Shown here in pieces: positions 1 to 5,600 of a DNA stretch of 64,000 nucleotides. The DNA is from Microbacterium sp. C5A9. GTDB taxonomy: Bacteria > Actinomycetota > Actinomycetes > Actinomycetales > Microbacteriaceae. The notes under the pieces were generated by a model. The model was not told the origin of the DNA. It did no database searches and saw only the letters and a list, made by a program, of their open reading frames with translations. How positions within the stretch are numbered: position 1 is the stretch's first letter; the number at the start of each line of letters is the position of its first letter. The translations under genes were made by a program, and so were the position numbers. Location: NCBI RefSeq assembly GCF_022627955.1, contig NZ_JABXGD010000006.1, positions 62,001 to 126,000 on the forward strand, written 5' to 3'.

Positions 1-149
1 TCAACATGGCTCAGGGGGTCTTCTCCGCGATCCGGAACGTCACCACTCATACGACGGATGACCTCCCCAAGCAAGAGGCTCTGGAGCAACTCGCGACGCT
101 GAGCATCCTCGCGCGCTGGATCGACAAGTGCGAGCTGGTCACGAGCTAG
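1..149 (+). CDS. TIGR02391-like protein, C-terminal fragment (5' end outside window)
   Basis: An open frame enters from the left edge in phase with base 3 and ends at TAG 147-149, giving 48 residues. The pattern GVFSAIRNVTTHTTDD followed by an acidic/leucine-rich helix (EALEQLATLSILARWID) resembles the C-terminus of the TIGR02391 / Ymh family, small proteins often found in mobile DNA and near restriction or abortive-infection genes. That family link is from memory of its RNP.AH-type motif and is moderate. The gene runs toward the minus-strand element genes. The N-terminus, and so any enzymatic or DNA-binding domain, lies outside the window. Confidence 0.55.
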   Translation, partial: NMAQGVFSAIRNVTTHTTDDLPKQEALEQLATLSILARWIDKCELVTS

Positions 150-165
150 AGGCTGAACCGCGATT

Positions 166-414
166 TCAGGACGCGGTAGTCCACCGCTGACGCTGCGGAT
201 GCCAATCCAACGCTTGCCAGCCCGGCAGTTTTCGGAACTCGGCTTGCACGGCGGGAGAGATATTTCGACGACCGACCTTCTGGATCAGCGCAAGGTCATC
301 CCCTACTTCGTGGGCGAGGCGATCACGGATCATGCGATAGCGCGCATACCCCGCTTGATTGATCTCGTCTTGAATCAGTCGCAACAGTACTTCCGCGGCT
401 CCGTGTGCATCCAT
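166..414 (-). CDS. Small hypothetical protein downstream of the resolvase
   Basis: Predicted 82-residue soluble protein, not recognised. It is rich in charged residues, with two probable helices (residues 7-40) and a Trp-rich C-terminus containing PGWQALDWHP. It lies 42 bases downstream of the resolvase stop on the same strand and converges tail to tail with the TIGR02391-like fragment. No good ribosome-binding site precedes the ATG, so the start is uncertain; translation may depend on the upstream resolvase gene. Codon choice is plausible for a real gene, but function is unknown. Confidence 0.5.
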   Translation of the reverse strand: MDAHGAAEVLLRLIQDEINQAGYARYRMIRDRLAHEVGDDLALIQKVGRRNISPAVQAEFRKLPGWQALDWHPQRQRWTTAS

Positions 415-456
415 GGTTCGACTGTATCGGCGCAGGACGGGCCTAATTCTGGTGGT

Positions 457-1041
457 CTATGTGTTGAGCGCCCGATACACGCTGGCGCGGCTGATCTCTT
501 CCTTGTTCACGATGCGGTCAATCGTCCAGCCCTGAGCGCGGAGCGCCCGCACCGCCTCTACCTTCTCGGGACGCAGGGCCGTCTTGGGGCGCGGCTTGCG
601 CTCCCCCTTCGCCGCGAGCGCTGCGCGACCCTCTGCGGCGCGTTCCTTGATGTTCTCGCGCTCCCACTCCGCGATGCTGAGCATGATGTTGCGGAGGAGC
701 TTGCCAGTGATGCCATCGAACTGCTCTCCCGCCTTCAGGCTGCGGACGTGGATGCCCGCTTCCTCCAGCTCTTCGAAGGTCTGGAGGGTGCCCAGCACGG
801 TACGGCCCAGGCGGTCGAGCGAGGACACGACGACCGTGTCGCCGGGACGGGCCACGCTCAGCAGAGCTTTCAGTCCAGGGCGGTCCATCGTCTTGCCGCT
901 CAGCTTGTCCTCGTAGATGCGATCCTCGGGGATGCCCTCATCGTGCAGCGCCTTCGTCTGGCGCTCGTAGGACTGCTGGACTGACGACACGCGGCGGTAG
1001 CCCCACAGGTATCCGGTCGCTGCGCTCTCGCTATTACTCAT
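457..1041 (-). CDS. Serine recombinase (resolvase/invertase family)
   Basis: The 194-residue length is typical of small serine resolvases and invertases. The catalytic N-terminal domain shows YRRVSS (nucleophile Ser19) followed by RQ at 28-29, then SSLDRLGR, the conserved arginine-containing active-site segment. A long helix (AEWERENIKERAAEGR) leads to a C-terminal helix-turn-helix (VRALRAQGWTIDRI...ISRASVYRAL) of Hin/gamma-delta type. It would cut and rejoin DNA at paired sites, resolving multimers or inverting or integrating the element. A -35 TTGCGT (1077-1072) and -10 TACACT (1053-1048), 18 bases apart, put the transcript start at or next to the ATG, so the mRNA is probably leaderless. 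A cluster of inverted half-sites lies immediately upstream. Confidence 0.92.
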   Translation of the reverse strand: MSNSESAATGYLWGYRRVSSVQQSYERQTKALHDEGIPEDRIYEDKLSGKTMDRPGLKALLSVARPGDTVVVSSLDRLGRTVLGTLQTFEELEEAGIHVRSLKAGEQFDGITGKLLRNIMLSIAEWERENIKERAAEGRAALAAKGERKPRPKTALRPEKVEAVRALRAQGWTIDRIVNKEEISRASVYRALNT

Positions 1042-1047
1042 GTGACG

Positions 1048-1077
1048 AGTGTATCAAGCGCTGTGATTGTGACGCAA
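1048..1077 (-). promoter_or_regulatory. Promoter of the resolvase gene
   Basis: Read on the minus strand, TTGCGT (1077-1072), an 18-base spacer and TACACT (1053-1048) match a sigma-A-type promoter. Only six bases separate the -10 box from the ATG at 1041, so transcription should begin at the start codon. A TGTGACG sequence occurs twice (1041-1047 and 1068-1074), flanking the spacer, and could be a regulator contact. Confidence 0.6.
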
Positions 1078-1081
1078 TAGA

Positions 1082-1171
1082 TGAGATGTATCTCAGGTGC
1101 CGGGTTTGCACGCGCCGCTGAGATGGTTTCGAGGCGTCTCGCCGTGGTCTCAGCTAATAAGCCCAATGAGA
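1082..1171. promoter_or_regulatory. Candidate res / recombination site: cluster of TGAGA half-sites
   Basis: Five exact copies of TGAGA or its complement, and one 4-base partial, occur in 90 bases: TGAGA 1082-1086, TCTCA 1091-1095, TGAGA 1119-1123, TCTC 1137-1140 (partial), TCTCA 1148-1152, TGAGA 1167-1171. The first pair forms a perfect inverted repeat (TGAGATgtATCTCA). The arrangement as three pairs with different spacing, just upstream of a serine resolvase gene, is how res sites of Tn3-type resolvases are organised. Assignment to this resolvase is inference. Confidence 0.5.
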
Positions 1172-1176
1172 CACAA

Positions 1177-1641
1177 CTACGAGGTGTGGCCCGATGGCGT
1201 GGTTACGAACTCGACGGGCGCATACGTTCTGCCAAACCTGCATCGGAATGATGCGAGTACGTCGAGCTGGGCAACGTCGGCCACCCACAGGCGCGGCTCG
1301 TCGTGGCGTCCGCTGCCCTCGCGCCAGGCGTCGAGCTTCGAGCCCGACCACCATGGACCGGCTGAGGAGTCGGCGTAGCGGTACAACTGCGGCGGCACAG
1401 TCTCCAAGGGCTCATAGTCCTCCACTGCAAAGTCGAGCACGGGATGACCACCTACCCACTCTCGACCGACGACGACGAGATCGACGGCAACGGGGCCGAC
1501 CGCGCGCAGGGCATTGAGGAGATCCGGCGTCGGCGTCTCTCGCGAGTGCTTCACGGCGAGCACGGCATCGACCACGTCGTCGCGGCCCAGAGGTCGTGCG
1601 TCCGTGGAGACTAGCTGCATGGTGAACGGAATCAGCGTCAC
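1177..1641 (-). CDS. Hypothetical protein of the Rep-resolvase element
   Basis: Predicted 154-residue protein with no recognised family. The GTG at 1641 was chosen because it overlaps the stop of the preceding helix-turn-helix gene as GTGA and has GGAGGA just upstream. A longer frame reaching 1719 would overlap that gene by more than 80 bases and lacks support. The protein is soluble, with a hydrophobic strand-like core (VAVDLVVVG) and several Trp/Tyr residues in the second half. It is the last gene of the overlapping series that begins near the replication initiator. Function is unknown. Confidence 0.65.
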   Translation of the reverse strand: MTLIPFTMQLVSTDARPLGRDDVVDAVLAVKHSRETPTPDLLNALRAVGPVAVDLVVVGREWVGGHPVLDFAVEDYEPLETVPPQLYRYADSSAGPWWSGSKLDAWREGSGRHDEPRLWVADVAQLDVLASFRCRFGRTYAPVEFVTTPSGHTS

Positions 1642-1946
1642 GTCTCCTCCGTCCGGATGATCTGGGCGACCCTGTGGCGCGAGATCTCGAAACGCGCGCC
1701 AATAGACGTCAGTGTCCATCCCTCTGCGCGCAAGGTGCGCATCTCGTCATGGTCTCTGAGCGAGAGCTTTCGGCGAGGGGCTGCAAGGCCATCGCGTTCG
1801 AGAATCCGGCCAAGGGTGCGGGGGGACACGTTAAAGACCTCCGCGATGGGGCGGAGGGGAAAGCCTGCGCGGCGCAATGCAGCCGCCATCGCCTCGCGCT
1901 CGGCAGAGAGTGCCCGCGGCTTGCCAGGACCGCGACCGGCCCTCAC
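1638..1946 (-). CDS. Small protein with two helix-turn-helix units
   Basis: A 102-residue basic protein with two tandem helix-turn-helix units. The first lies near residues 28-50 (PLRPIAEVFNVSPRTLGRIL), the second near 68-98 (MRTLRAEGWTLTSI...ISRHRVAQII). The second unit is clearly similar to the DNA-binding domain of the resolvase encoded at 457-1041: both share the pattern R.LRA.GWT...I....EISR..V. It may therefore bind the same or related DNA, as an accessory or regulatory factor for recombination or for the operon. It overlaps both neighbours by 4 bases, which implies translational coupling. DNA binding is well supported; the role is inference. Confidence 0.75.
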   Translation of the reverse strand: MRAGRGPGKPRALSAEREAMAAALRRAGFPLRPIAEVFNVSPRTLGRILERDGLAAPRRKLSLRDHDEMRTLRAEGWTLTSIGARFEISRHRVAQIIRTEET

Positions 1947-2179
1947 GTCTCGACTCCGAACAGTGAACGCGCATGGTTGGTCTCGGCGTTGTTCATCGGG
2001 GCTTCGAGTACTCGCCCCTCACGCTCGACCAGCCTGACAACGTGCCCGGTGCGTTCATGCACGAGCGTGAAGTCCGGCATCACGAGGACATCAGCATCCA
2101 GGGGCACGCCCGTGGTCATGGTGCCCCCGACGCTAACGACCCTCACCCCGTTGATAGACGGCTCGCTGAGAGCATTCAT
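1943..2179 (-). CDS. Small hypothetical protein of the element
   Basis: Predicted 78-residue protein, not recognised. Sequence is mostly beta-like (VVSVGGTMTTGVPLDADVLVM, with a Thr/Gly turn) and contains one HERTGHVVRL segment. There is no signal peptide or membrane segment. It overlaps the upstream gene by 4 bases and the downstream helix-turn-helix gene by 4 bases, so it is almost certainly translated as part of the same operon. Function cannot be assigned. Confidence 0.6.
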   Translation of the reverse strand: MNALSEPSINGVRVVSVGGTMTTGVPLDADVLVMPDFTLVHERTGHVVRLVEREGRVLEAPMNNAETNHARSLFGVET

Positions 2180-2637
2180 CGTGCACCCCGCGGGAACCGC
2201 CAGCTCATGATGTCCTCGATGAGCGCGTCGGTGAGGCCCGACAGCTCACGCAGGCGTCCCTGAGGATCGAGCGTGAGGACGTGCAGCACGCCGTTAGGCT
2301 CCACGGCATACATGGTGTCCTTGCCTTTAGCGGAGCTGAAGGCGATGTGCCAATCTGCCGGGATCGACACCTTCGACCCGTCGAGGTAGATCGAGACCCT
2401 GGGGGCCGATGCGGGCACGCGCGGCCGGTCAGTGAGGTGGGCGTCCTTCACGGAGTCAAGGTGCGCCTGAGCCCGCGGTGAGGGCCGTCCAGGCCCGATG
2501 GTCACCGTTATCGGCTTCGCGCGGCTCGGGGGCGGCTCTGGGGTCTTCTGCGGCTGCTGTGGGGCGCTGTACGCCTCGGGGTGGGCTACCCACGGCGCTC
2601 GCGGGTGGATCTTCCGTGCGGCGTGCTTCGGCTTCAT
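2176..2637 (-). CDS. Hypothetical protein with basic proline-rich N-terminus
   Basis: Predicted 153-residue protein, not recognised. The first ~65 residues are basic and rich in Pro/Gln (for example PQQPQKTPEPPPSRAKP) and probably disordered. The remainder looks folded, with alternating strands (VSIYLDGSKVSIPADWHIAF, MYAVEPNGVLHVLTLD) and a short C-terminal helix. An 88-base gap separates it from the upstream gene, the only sizeable gap between the gene after rep and the resolvase region, so a second promoter is possible there. The 3' end overlaps the next gene by 4 bases. Confidence 0.6.
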   Translation of the reverse strand: MKPKHAARKIHPRAPWVAHPEAYSAPQQPQKTPEPPPSRAKPITVTIGPGRPSPRAQAHLDSVKDAHLTDRPRVPASAPRVSIYLDGSKVSIPADWHIAFSSAKGKDTMYAVEPNGVLHVLTLDPQGRLRELSGLTDALIEDIMSWRFPRGAR

Positions 2638-2725
2638 GATGCTGCTTCCAGGTGGTTGGTCCGACCCTCCGCGTGGCTATCCATGGCCCCGGGTAGGTTG
2701 TGGCGAAGGGTCGGAGCTGCGGGGC

Positions 2726-3097
2726 TTATGGGGTTGAAGCTGCCGCTCGGGCCAGCTTGGCGAGGCCGCTCAGCGTGAGAACCGCGAACGCCTCATCGAT
2801 GCCGCGTCCGCCTCTCGTCTGCACGAGGGCCGTCACGGGATAACCCGCCATCGCTGCGGTAGCGCGTGCCGAATCGAGATCTGTACTGAGTCGATGGTTA
2901 CCGCGGGCGGAGACATCGACCCAGACGCCAGGGATACCTGTCACGTCGGGCACGAGCCCCGCGTCCAGGGCTGTGCTGATCTTCGAGTGGATCGGGCTCG
3001 GCTCGGCGTCGAAGCCTTCGGAGCTGAGGTAGTACGCAGTGAGGCTGCGCAGGCTCTCGTTGAGGCGGCGGCTCTGGTTGCCGGTCGGAGTGGTCAT
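2726..3097 (-). CDS. Small protein, possibly a degenerate PD-(D/E)xK-type nuclease fold
   Basis: Predicted 123-residue protein. The segment LVPDVTGIPGVWVDVSARGNHRLSTDL..., with a C-terminal pattern ending in LAKLAR, has the layout of small phage and plasmid endonuclease-like proteins of the Holliday-junction-resolvase kind (PD, G.PG, then E.K followed by a helix). In those proteins the E.K lysine is catalytic; here the equivalent stretch is DVS, so activity would be doubtful. This comparison is made by eye and is low confidence. The start overlaps the upstream gene by 4 bases. Confidence 0.55.
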   Translation of the reverse strand: MTTPTGNQSRRLNESLRSLTAYYLSSEGFDAEPSPIHSKISTALDAGLVPDVTGIPGVWVDVSARGNHRLSTDLDSARATAAMAGYPVTALVQTRGGRGIDEAFAVLTLSGLAKLARAAASTP

Positions 3098-3702
3098 CGT
3101 CGGTCACCGCCCTGCCCCGGCTCCCGGGCCCCGTACGCCCACGCCAACCGGGTCCCGCCCTCATCCAGGGCCTTCCGCTGCTCTTCTGCTGCGGCGATGG
3201 ACGGATCGGGCGAGGTGCTGATGATCGTGGACGTCGGAGCTGCGGGGCCGAACTTCTTCTCGACCGCGGCGAGCGCTTCCGCGCGGGCCTCCGCGGTCGG
3301 CTGCGACCATGCCTCGCGGCGTGCCTGCTCTCTGAGTTCGACCCACTGCGAATCGCCCCATTCGTTCCACCGCTGGATGTCCGCGGGTGCCCGACCCGGG
3401 CGGAACCGGATCTCGCCCCATCGGTCGAGCTGCGCGGCGTCCTCTCCGATGAGAGACATCCAGGACCTGCCGGATGCCGAGAAGGACGCCGCGATCATCT
3501 CAGCGGTCGCGATAATGGTCTCGCCCGCGGTCGTCTGGTGAGCCGCAGAGAGGAGCCCGCGTCCGGTGGCGATGCTGATGCCGGTTCGCAGGACGTGGAA
3601 CTCGTCGCCAGGTCGAATCGGCAGGGCCGCATCTTTGTGCGCGGCCACCTCTGCGCGAAGACGCTCCAGTCGATCCCGGGGGCTCTCAATAGTGTTCGTC
3701 AC
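3094..3702 (-). CDS. Hypothetical protein of the element
   Basis: Predicted 202-residue soluble protein, not recognised. It begins with a charged helix (DRLERLRAEVAAHKDAAL) and has a mixed middle region with several Trp residues (SWMSLIG, DRWGEIRF, RWNEWGDSQW). A helical Ala/Glu-rich region around 130-165 precedes a disordered Gly/Arg tail. It overlaps both neighbouring genes by 4 bases, placing it in the rep operon. The conserved-looking tryptophan pattern suggests a folded protein rather than a chance frame, but no function can be given. Confidence 0.6.
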   Translation of the reverse strand: MTNTIESPRDRLERLRAEVAAHKDAALPIRPGDEFHVLRTGISIATGRGLLSAAHQTTAGETIIATAEMIAASFSASGRSWMSLIGEDAAQLDRWGEIRFRPGRAPADIQRWNEWGDSQWVELREQARREAWSQPTAEARAEALAAVEKKFGPAAPTSTIISTSPDPSIAAAEEQRKALDEGGTRLAWAYGAREPGQGGDRR

Positions 3703-4265
3703 GCTCTAACCTCTATTTCTCGATTCGAGTTATCGGCCATCTGCCGGATGTGGTCGGCCCAATCACGCCGGTTGCGGCGCTCCAAGACGTCGATGATCGC
3801 GGCAGCCACCTCGGGGTGCTCGCGCACGGTCGTGCCCAGAACTTTGAGCGCGTCGTTGGCGTCCTGGATGTTCTCTGCGATGTCTGCGCCCAGAGTGTCC
3901 AGAGGTGCGAGCGCCGTAAGCACTCGGGCCTCTGCCTGTCCGGCGCTCAGGGCGAGCTTGTGGTCCCCTTTGGCCTCGGCGGCTGCTCGGGTGTCTCGTG
4001 CATGATCTGCGACCTCCAAGAGGCGCGATGCCATCGTGAGGCCAGGTGCTCCCTCTACTTCCGCCAGTGCGGCCTGTGCGGCTGCGGAGAGGTGGTCTCG
4101 GACATGGCGTCGTACTGACTCGGGTGCCAATCCGCGCTGCCCCGCTACGCCCCGGATCGATGAGGTGCCGGAGGTGAGATCAAACTCGATCTGTGCACGG
4201 TCTGGATGCGAGCACAGCACACAGCGACGGCCCGGTCGGGCTGGCATGTGTGCGATGGCTTCCAT
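3699..4265 (-). CDS. DNA-binding-like protein with CxxC and helix-turn-helix
   Basis: Predicted 188-residue protein. Near the N-terminus, CVLCSHPDR (Cys15, Cys18) suggests a small zinc-binding knuckle. It is followed by a helix-turn-helix-like stretch, SSIRGVAGQRGLAPESVRRH, with His residues that could complete metal binding. The rest is helical and Ala-rich. This N-terminal layout is common in actinobacterial phage and plasmid proteins. The start is uncertain: the ATG at 4265 lacks a ribosome-binding site but lies five bases after TATGTT, and a second ATG is six codons downstream. It lies 49 bases after the rep stop. A role in copy control or DNA packaging is speculation. Confidence 0.6.
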   Translation of the reverse strand: MEAIAHMPARPGRRCVLCSHPDRAQIEFDLTSGTSSIRGVAGQRGLAPESVRRHVRDHLSAAAQAALAEVEGAPGLTMASRLLEVADHARDTRAAAEAKGDHKLALSAGQAEARVLTALAPLDTLGADIAENIQDANDALKVLGTTVREHPEVAAAIIDVLERRNRRDWADHIRQMADNSNREIEVRA

Positions 4266-4314
4266 ATCAGAACATATCGACCGCTTCGAGATTTACGTGC
4301 GAGATGCGGCCCGA

Positions 4315-5283
4315 TCAGTCGAGCGCCCCGCTGCGGAGGAGGTCATCGAAGTCCAGGGGCTGCTGACAGACGCCGGTTGCTTCCCAGGCGCGACGGCGGA
4401 ACGCTCCCGCCTCCAGGTCGTGGATGAGCGACAGGGCGTCTGCATCCCCGGCGTGCACGGACGCCCACAGGCGGGAAGCGGTGTTCGTGCCGTTCGCACT
4501 AACGCGTTCCTTCGTGATGTAGTCCACGGCGACGCTGAGGTCCGTCACCACGCGAACGTGCTGCCCCTGAGGCCCGGCGTCGATGCCCAGCCGCTCGGCC
4601 TGCTGGAGGAAGCGCTCACGAAGCGATAGCGCGAACGCGAGAGAATCCTCCCGGCTCTTCGTTTCTGAAAATACGATCAGGCTGTGAGCATGCACGTGCC
4701 ATGCTGCGTCACCCCACTTCGGCTCGATGGCTCGTGCGCTTCCGGCTACGCCCCTGCGCTTCAGCCAGCCGCCCTTCAGGGTCGCTGCGAGCACACGAGA
4801 GAGGTCACCCCACTGCGGCCTGAGCGCCCTACCGGGCGTGCTGGCGATGGTGGCCGTCCATAGGAGCATGGTGCCGTGGTGCTGGCTTCCCAGCGCGCTC
4901 ATGAGGTCGCGTCGGTGCTGGCTGGCCCGGCCTGTCGAGCAGACGGCGCAGAGCGCCAAGCCGCACCTGTGGCCGACCTGCCCGCACTTGCGGAGCTTGC
5001 TACGGAGCGAGTAGACCCTCTGAGTCGCGTTTAGCGCGTAACGCGCATCATGTGCGGTGCCTACAGTTACCGTGTCTTGATGGAATGAACACCCCCGCGC
5101 TCGCTGGAGGAGCCGCGCGCAGCGTGCGTCGGCGCGCTCGTGCCGGGCTCCGGATTCGACCGTGATGGGCACTCTCCGCACTGGTCTCAGGCGGGGTGCG
5201 TCGAGTAGCATCGACATGAGATCAACCTCTTCAGCCGCCTCAGTCCACTGCAAGGACGGGGCGGCTTTCTCGTGCGCGCCCAC
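4315..5283 (-). CDS. Rolling-circle replication initiator (HUH/Tyr Rep)
   Basis: A 322-residue protein with the features of rolling-circle plasmid Rep proteins. Four cysteines (C100, C107, C112, C115) in KCGQVGHRCGLALCAVC form the usual N-terminal zinc-binding element. LLWTATI (140-146) is motif I. HVHAH (196-200) is the metal-binding HUH motif II, and VDYITKE (Tyr255, Lys258) is motif III, where the tyrosine nicks the origin and stays bound to DNA. It would start replication of the element from a double-strand origin, probably nearby. The GTG at 5283 is not preceded by a clear ribosome-binding site; an ATG at 5217 with AGAGG upstream is an alternative that keeps all motifs. Sequence repeats lie upstream at 5344-5406. 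Confidence 0.85.
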   Translation of the reverse strand: MGAHEKAAPSLQWTEAAEEVDLMSMLLDAPRLRPVRRVPITVESGARHERADARCARLLQRARGCSFHQDTVTVGTAHDARYALNATQRVYSLRSKLRKCGQVGHRCGLALCAVCSTGRASQHRRDLMSALGSQHHGTMLLWTATIASTPGRALRPQWGDLSRVLAATLKGGWLKRRGVAGSARAIEPKWGDAAWHVHAHSLIVFSETKSREDSLAFALSLRERFLQQAERLGIDAGPQGQHVRVVTDLSVAVDYITKERVSANGTNTASRLWASVHAGDADALSLIHDLEAGAFRRRAWEATGVCQQPLDFDDLLRSGALD

Positions 5284-5343
5284 GTGCGGGTTCGAGGCCG
5301 AGGGTACCCCCTCCAGCGCCGTCCGTCTACATCGTGCGATATA

Positions 5344-5406
5344 CGCGCTAACCTGGGGTTTTCGGCGCGTCGCGCGCTAACTGTTTGTCTACAGGGTTCT
5401 CTACAG
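5344..5406. repeat. Direct repeats upstream of rep (possible iterons or double-strand origin)
   Basis: CGCGCTAAC occurs at 5344-5352 and 5373-5381 (29 bases apart). TCTACAG occurs at 5388-5394 and 5400-5406 (12 bases apart), with a partial copy TCTACA at 5325-5330. A reversed TTAGCGCG is found inside rep at 5031-5038. Short direct repeats in front of a rep gene are typical of initiator binding sites or of autoregulation. The nick site is not identified. Confidence 0.45.
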
Positions 5407-5547
5407 ACCGCGGGCGACTCATCTCCGATGATCGAAGCCTCGAACAGCCCTTCCGTGTCCATCTCGTGTCCAAAGCGATTGCCACGAGGTACCCTGAAAG
5501 CCGCAGGAGGGCGATCTCGTTTCAAGAATTAGACCCGAACGACACCC

Positions 5548-5578
5548 ACAACTGGGTACGGTGATGATTCTCAGTTGT
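5548..5578. repeat. Inverted repeat at the element/chromosome junction
   Basis: ACAACTG (5548-5554) and CAGTTGT (5572-5578) form a perfect 7-base inverted repeat around a 17-base spacer, 23 bases from the rdgB stop codon. It could be a terminator for rdgB (which ends on this side), an attachment site, or an origin hairpin. The sequence alone does not decide. Confidence 0.35.
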
Positions 5579-5600
5579 GAGACGCGACCGCGATCCGCCG

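Follow-up and report, generated by a model that had tools for sequence, protein, structure and literature searches.

A probable 9.3-kb integrative element with a rolling-circle initiator, predicted anti-phage genes and no transfer gene of its own beside rdgB in Microbacterium sp. C5A9

We analyzed a 64,000-nt stretch of the genome of Microbacterium sp. C5A9 (the window, G000:C42:62001-126000), which opens inside a small element lying between rdgB and a cation-efflux gene. The element extends from G000:C42:58250 to 67576 (9.3 kb); its right 5.6 kb are inside the window, whose edge cuts it. Judging from sequence, this is probably an integrative mobile element that replicates by rolling circle and has no transfer gene of its own. 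It likely carries anti-phage genes and resembles an actinomycete integrative and conjugative element (AICE) minus the transfer gene. A preliminary description made from the window had proposed a Rep/resolvase element without an integrase. That part has to be given up, as a tyrosine integrase, attL and a pair of genes encoding TIR and HEPN proteins lie just left of the window.

Results

A site beside rdgB that is empty in relatives

The element is bounded by two 23-nt direct repeats, attL and attR, which have 21 bases in common and are spaced 9304 nt apart; rdgB and rph are on its right side. Its G+C content is 64.2%, compared to 69.1-69.2% in the flanks. We joined the two flanks into a 660-nt query and searched 34 other genomes of the same genus. 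The joined site is one contiguous match (at least 650 of the 660 positions), i.e., empty, in 23 of them. Another eight have it as two pieces separated by 14 nt to 2.6 kb, and none of these holds a 9-kb insert; the last three show just one flank or a weak match. The earlier view that the DNA adjoining rdgB is a compact mobile element and not fixed core is borne out by the empty sites. We give next to no credence to the reading that these are fixed chromosomal genes merely resembling an element: the region is single-copy in the genome, which is all that favors this reading, and it is contradicted by the contiguous empty site in 23 relatives, the att repeats and the lower G+C content.

A sister element occupies the same rdgB/cation-efflux site in the genome G282, where its ends form a 17-nt repeat. 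The two elements are 68% identical in the integrase, 55% in Rep, 89% in orf188, 92% in both orf202 and orf123, and 61% in both orf153 and orf180, and their DNA similarity is patchy along the length. Because the sister keeps Rep, orf188, orf202, orf123, orf153 and orf180, these genes are not chance open reading frames (ORFs). Its cargo is different and consists of a 281-amino acid protein and a 387-amino acid protein; the former reads as a protein kinase from its sequence, in agreement with the kinase matches among other cargo (see below). On the inner side of each terminus, both elements have a pair of TGGACACG repeats; elsewhere in the window (58.4 kb) this repeat has two copies.

The left flank of the att core is similar to the region upstream of the cation-efflux gene in relatives. 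The core at attR overlaps a stretch upstream of that gene which is conserved in some relatives (L024, L034, L035, L036 and L039; L numbers denote the loci that were read) and which may be a regulatory site of the gene.

A rolling-circle initiator and a serine resolvase

The rep product has the motifs characteristic of rolling-circle initiators. In its 322-amino acid ORF, the HUH motif HVHAH starts at residue 196 and the tyrosine motif YITK is at 255, as the preliminary description had it, and its other ORFs also stand. Residues C100, C107, C112, C115, H198, Y255 and K258 are invariant in eight aligned family members. Rep is found in 9 of 366 genomes of the genus. Its relatives outside are the Rep proteins of Rhodococcus erythropolis rolling-circle plasmids (NC_006258, NZ_AY178757; 27.6% identity over 60% of the length, E-value 4e-7), which differ from this element in being free plasmids of approximately 6 kb.

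The region around rep contains a short repeat. In the rep-orf188 regions of the 29 loci described below, the 8-mer GTTAGCGC has 29 copies against approximately 1.2 expected; it is present in 11 of the 29 loci, both in elements with Rep and in those with another protein at the Rep position. Here it occurs at window positions 5344 and 5373, the shorter TTAGCGCG also at 5031, and the remaining 58.4 kb of the window have no copy of GTTAGCGC. It is not the top 8-mer by fold enrichment: CGATAGTA, AACCGAAC and AGAAATAG have higher ratios, with 9-11 copies each. We regard GTTAGCGC as a candidate regulatory or origin repeat.

A short acidic motif of the type DFDDLL is seen in 5 of 9 Rep proteins (C-terminus), 5 of 6 integrase-coupled small ORFs (N-terminus) and 2 of 29 orf202 proteins, and in 0 of 122 far neighbors; the pattern was defined post hoc. 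The motif may serve for docking to a partner shared by these proteins.

The serine resolvase previously noted is real, and orf82 trails after it. The gene product has a Resolvase domain and a C-terminal helix-turn-helix (HTH), and a candidate res site precedes the gene; a homologue with 88% identity is found in an element of G238. The inverted repeat of this candidate site stands at an equal 132-nt spacing in L018 and L086, whose resolvases are the closest, i.e., in 3 of the 25 resolvase genes scanned. It is in none of the other 22 and in 1 of 580 random stretches, for a pattern picked after aligning these three elements. Nearly every gene of the minus-strand series had been said to overlap the next by 4 bases, which is too strong, since such overlaps exist at only five of nine junctions (orf188/orf202, orf202/orf123, orf153/orf78, orf78/orf102 and orf102/orf154); at the remaining four the genes are separated by 49, 88, 135 and 42 nt.

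Integrase and defense-type genes left of the window

The tyrosine integrase ends approximately 2.5 kb left of the window. The reported absence of such a gene is thereby true of the window and wrong for the element. The preliminary description had also allowed that an intact phage or conjugative module continuing leftwards might account for its genes. The integrase, the left att repeat and the TIR and HEPN pair agree with this in part; structural and packaging genes of a tailed phage or prophage are found neither in Pfam scans of 15 element proteins nor in a PHROGs scan of the 10 window proteins. Pfam scans of the same 10 proteins and of the 5 that the element encodes to the left of the window recognize no FtsK or relaxase family, as had been observed for the window.

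The HEPN protein carries an Rx4H motif (RNVTTH) at residue 208, and its Ymh family is counted as HEPN in PMC3710099. Homologues are found in L020:14373-15092 (51%) and L128:5549-6256, in or near loci bearing orf202, one of which belongs to another genus. The lipoprotein-like gene beside the integrase occurs in two other elements as well (L072:4969-5565 and L076:16266-16625), and in L072 it adjoins a homologue of the 96-amino acid ORF; an exclusion function is possible.

A common backbone with variable modules

How far does this gene set extend? The orf202 profile is found in 40 of the 366 Microbacterium genomes. A larger orf202 profile, applied to 349 genomes of the bacterial family, matches in 16 and covers 14 of the 85 genera sampled. 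We read 29 of the 40 genus genomes, stronger matches first, in stretches of up to 20 kb each. In all 29 loci orf188 is upstream of orf202 on the same strand (with one small ORF in between in L084), and a small serine resolvase is present in 24. Integrases are found in 26 stretches, 19 of them tyrosine and 7 large serine integrases, and at least 7 of the 29 have the integrase beside a tRNA gene. The Rep profile matches in 9 loci; 6 have another protein in its position and 14 have neither. Of these six other proteins, approximately 260-330 amino acids long, only two show an HTH, a weak one, and our guess, from their position, is that they are initiators. Integrase, initiator and cargo vary between elements, with orf188-orf202 as the common backbone. 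The preliminary description had supposed that the unidentified genes probably act in copy-number control, partition or exclusion. That this pair is kept together across elements with different initiators speaks against a role tied to the Rep seen here.

For the cargo, we listed 72 ORFs between integrase and backbone from 24 of the 29 loci. Five had been removed before scanning (a near-duplicate plus four that were small or antisense), and the remaining 67 together with 2 from L020 gave 69 that were scanned. At a Pfam threshold of 1e-5, kinases are found in three. Found once each are a XamI endonuclease, an Eco57I methylase, a D12 methylase, a CAP12/Pycsar TIR, TIR_2, RelA/SpoT, an IrrE-like M78, DUF4411, AAA_15, AAA_21, Schlafen AlbA_2, NA37 and DUF4917; a few further matches are of a non-defense type. 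PADLOC models give 148 families on the cargo, and mostly kinase models are among the best 25 of the 148.

PDB profile searches of orf202 and orf123 return nothing useful, and their predicted structures are poor, with a predicted local distance difference test (pLDDT) score of 45.8 for orf202 (two sequences) and 47.5 for the AlphaFold model of orf123 (single sequence), which is too poor to use. The residue pattern of orf123 could be read as that of a PD-(D/E)xK nuclease, a reading that no search supports. In the plasmid collection orf202 has no match, and Rep is the only protein with (distant) plasmid relatives. No account of these elements was found in the open-access literature, a scope that leaves most subscription papers outside.

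Two further observations concern orf202-bearing loci. G282 has a second, distant orf202 match (G282:C23:104858-112293), approximately 7 kb from a 486-amino acid ORF with an FtsK domain, which is possibly a relative with a tra gene. In G522, three stretches (L121, L122 and L123) have a backbone element and are nearly identical over more than 18 kb; two sit close to the ends of a 3.18-Mb contig, the third on a contig of 60 kb. Either a large replicon that is mobile or an effect of the assembly would account for them. Recent transposition was rejected, given that the identity extends for more than 18 kb beyond the backbone, and the copies were left unused.

Table 1. Features of the element (L003 coordinates minus 6000 give window positions)
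Feature	Position	Strand	Remarks
attL	L003:2250-2272 (G000:C42:58250-58272)		partner of attR
Tyrosine integrase	L003:2305-3459		PF00589, 7.8e-23; true start may be internal to ORF
96-aa ORF	L003:3456-3746		overlaps integrase end
Lipoprotein-like gene	L003:3865-4341	opposite	beside integrase
TIR protein, 352 aa	L003:4340-5398		TIR_2, 4.9e-14
HEPN protein (Hypoth_Ymh), 245 aa	L003:5412-6149 = L002:17412-18149; 3' end at window 1-149	+	PF09509, 1.5e-25
orf82	window 166-414	-	small protein after resolvase; weak Pfam matches below cut-off
Small serine resolvase, 194 aa	window 457-1041	-	PF00239, 6.2e-35; HTH_7, 4.7e-5
Candidate res subsite	window 1147-1173		inverted repeat TGTCTCA-N13-TGAGAC; 132 nt upstream of resolvase start codon
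orf154 (orf180 from first start)	window 1177-1641	-	154-aa start gives 4-nt overlap
orf102	window 1638-1946	-	two HTH motifs; HTH_23, 6.6e-11; HTH_7, 1e-9
orf78	window 1943-2179	-	no Pfam match
orf153	window 2176-2637	-	orf153-type matches in 9/28 other loci
orf123	window 2726-3097	-	backbone protein; profile match in 17/29 loci
orf202	window 3094-3702	-	backbone protein, family marker
orf188	window 3699-4265	-	HTH backbone protein; upstream of orf202 in 29/29 loci
rep	window 4315-5283	-	HUH rolling-circle initiator; likely start 5217 (300 aa) from relatives
TTAGCGCG motif	window 5031-5038	+	inside rep
TTAGCGCG motif	window 5344-5351	-	upstream of rep; candidate operator or origin repeat
TTAGCGCG motif, second	window 5373-5380	-	upstream of rep
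Two TGGACACG repeats	window 5454-5472	-	candidate integrase arm sites; two more inside left end
attR	window 5554-5576	n/a	23-nt direct repeat with attL, 21/23 identical

Discussion

We propose the following life cycle for the element. The integrase, perhaps with the coupled 96-amino acid ORF, would excise it by recombining the 17-nt common core, so that the right end is joined to the left end through GGTGATGATTCTCAGTT in the attP junction. Rep would then nick an origin close to its own gene and replicate the circle, and the resolvase would resolve multimers at res. The orf188 protein may act on the TTAGCGCG sites, either as a regulator or as an origin or partition protein. The TIR and HEPN pair would defend the host against phages. 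Transfer from cell to cell would need a helper, such as a conjugative element, a phage or DNA uptake.

Several points weigh against this proposal. We infer excision, rolling-circle replication, multimer resolution and defense from sequence. Rep scores 0.0018 against Rep_1, below the Pfam cut-off, and no double-strand origin was identified, with no nick site nameable from the sequence. Since the Rep profile matches in only 9 of the 29 loci, rolling-circle autonomy cannot hold for the whole family on present evidence. The TIR and HEPN proteins match PADLOC defense models weakly (1.3e-6 to 1.4e-11) and match no complete named PADLOC defense system, and the majority of the 69 cargo ORFs scanned lack a Pfam match at 1e-5.

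AICEs of the pSAM2 type, as defined in Ghinet et al. 2011 (PMC3218068), are among the closest known systems. They combine a site-specific integrase (tyrosine or serine) with a rolling-circle Rep in actinobacterial chromosomes and exchange modules with one another. The present element has such an integrase (PF00589, 7.8e-23) with att repeats. AICE replication proteins are RepSA, RepAM or Prim-Pol; here we find a HUH Rep related to a plasmid rep, a likeness drawn independently of RepSA. This element differs from AICEs in its serine resolvase and its orf188-orf202 backbone, and above all in having no FtsK/SpoIIIE Tra, which is equally missing from the other 28 stretches: PF01580 has no match in any of the 29, though it does in each of the 29 genomes. 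One may ask whether the element is a decayed AICE, immobile or carried along only by accident since the loss of its FtsK/TraB gene. We find this quite unlikely, because the tra-less state in 29 of 29 stretches, the coherent backbone and the conserved sites are not expected from recent decay, and the element's own ORFs are intact.

Integrative mobilizable elements, following the definition in PMC11389934, similarly integrate and have no mating-pair formation system. They carry an oriT, with or without a relaxase; general Pfam scans of the present element's proteins show no relaxase, and an oriT would be recognizable only from a known helper.

Phage satellites with anti-phage cargo (PMC9122126) are likewise small integrative elements with variable defense-type cargo. 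On this model orf188 would be a small-terminase-like protein (TerS), orf188-orf202(-orf123) would redirect helper-phage packaging, and Rep would amplify the element on induction. The defense-type cargo and the lack of a transfer gene in all 29 loci suit a satellite. A 29-row profile of orf188 matches Sf6 TerS structures in PDB (2.6e-4), PF20901 exceeds its threshold for orf188 in G255 and G358, and hits to a terminase PHROG come from 3 of the 69 backbone proteins (9.7e-6 at best). However, the orf188 profile scores higher against a resolvase HTH control (95.5%) than against nine Sf6-type TerS (89.2%), the part after the HTH matches neither TerS (0.2%) nor resolvase, and the best E-value of the PDB search belongs to a designed HTH repeat protein. 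Neither packaging nor capsid genes are recognized in the element, and orf188, orf202 and Rep have no relatives in INPHARED phages and no close ones in IMG/VR. As the TerS similarity is confined to the HTH, orf188 is shown only as an HTH protein. Given the higher resolvase control and the unmatched C-terminal half, we do not regard the terminase reading of orf188 as supported, keep it only within the satellite model, and hold that model to be rather unlikely.

The integrative, rolling-circle-replicating element without a transfer gene remains our preferred reading. It is also tempting to speculate, as something of a long shot, that small integrative elements of Microbacteriaceae without tra genes form a class still lacking a name, of which the orf188-orf202(-orf123) cassette is the hallmark. 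Integrase, initiator and defense-type cargo would then be plug-in modules, and the cassette itself would spread by taking over helper-phage particles or a helper-element channel via proteins unlike known terminases or relaxases.

The occupied and empty sites beside rdgB, together with a defined repeat, make excision directly testable by the polymerase chain reaction. The backbone marker gene is present in 40 of 366 Microbacterium species genomes, or roughly one in nine, and the likely defense genes vary among the elements read. If the elements are mobile, they would be a major route for the exchange of phage defense among these bacteria, and work on how tra-less elements travel would best start from orf188-orf202.

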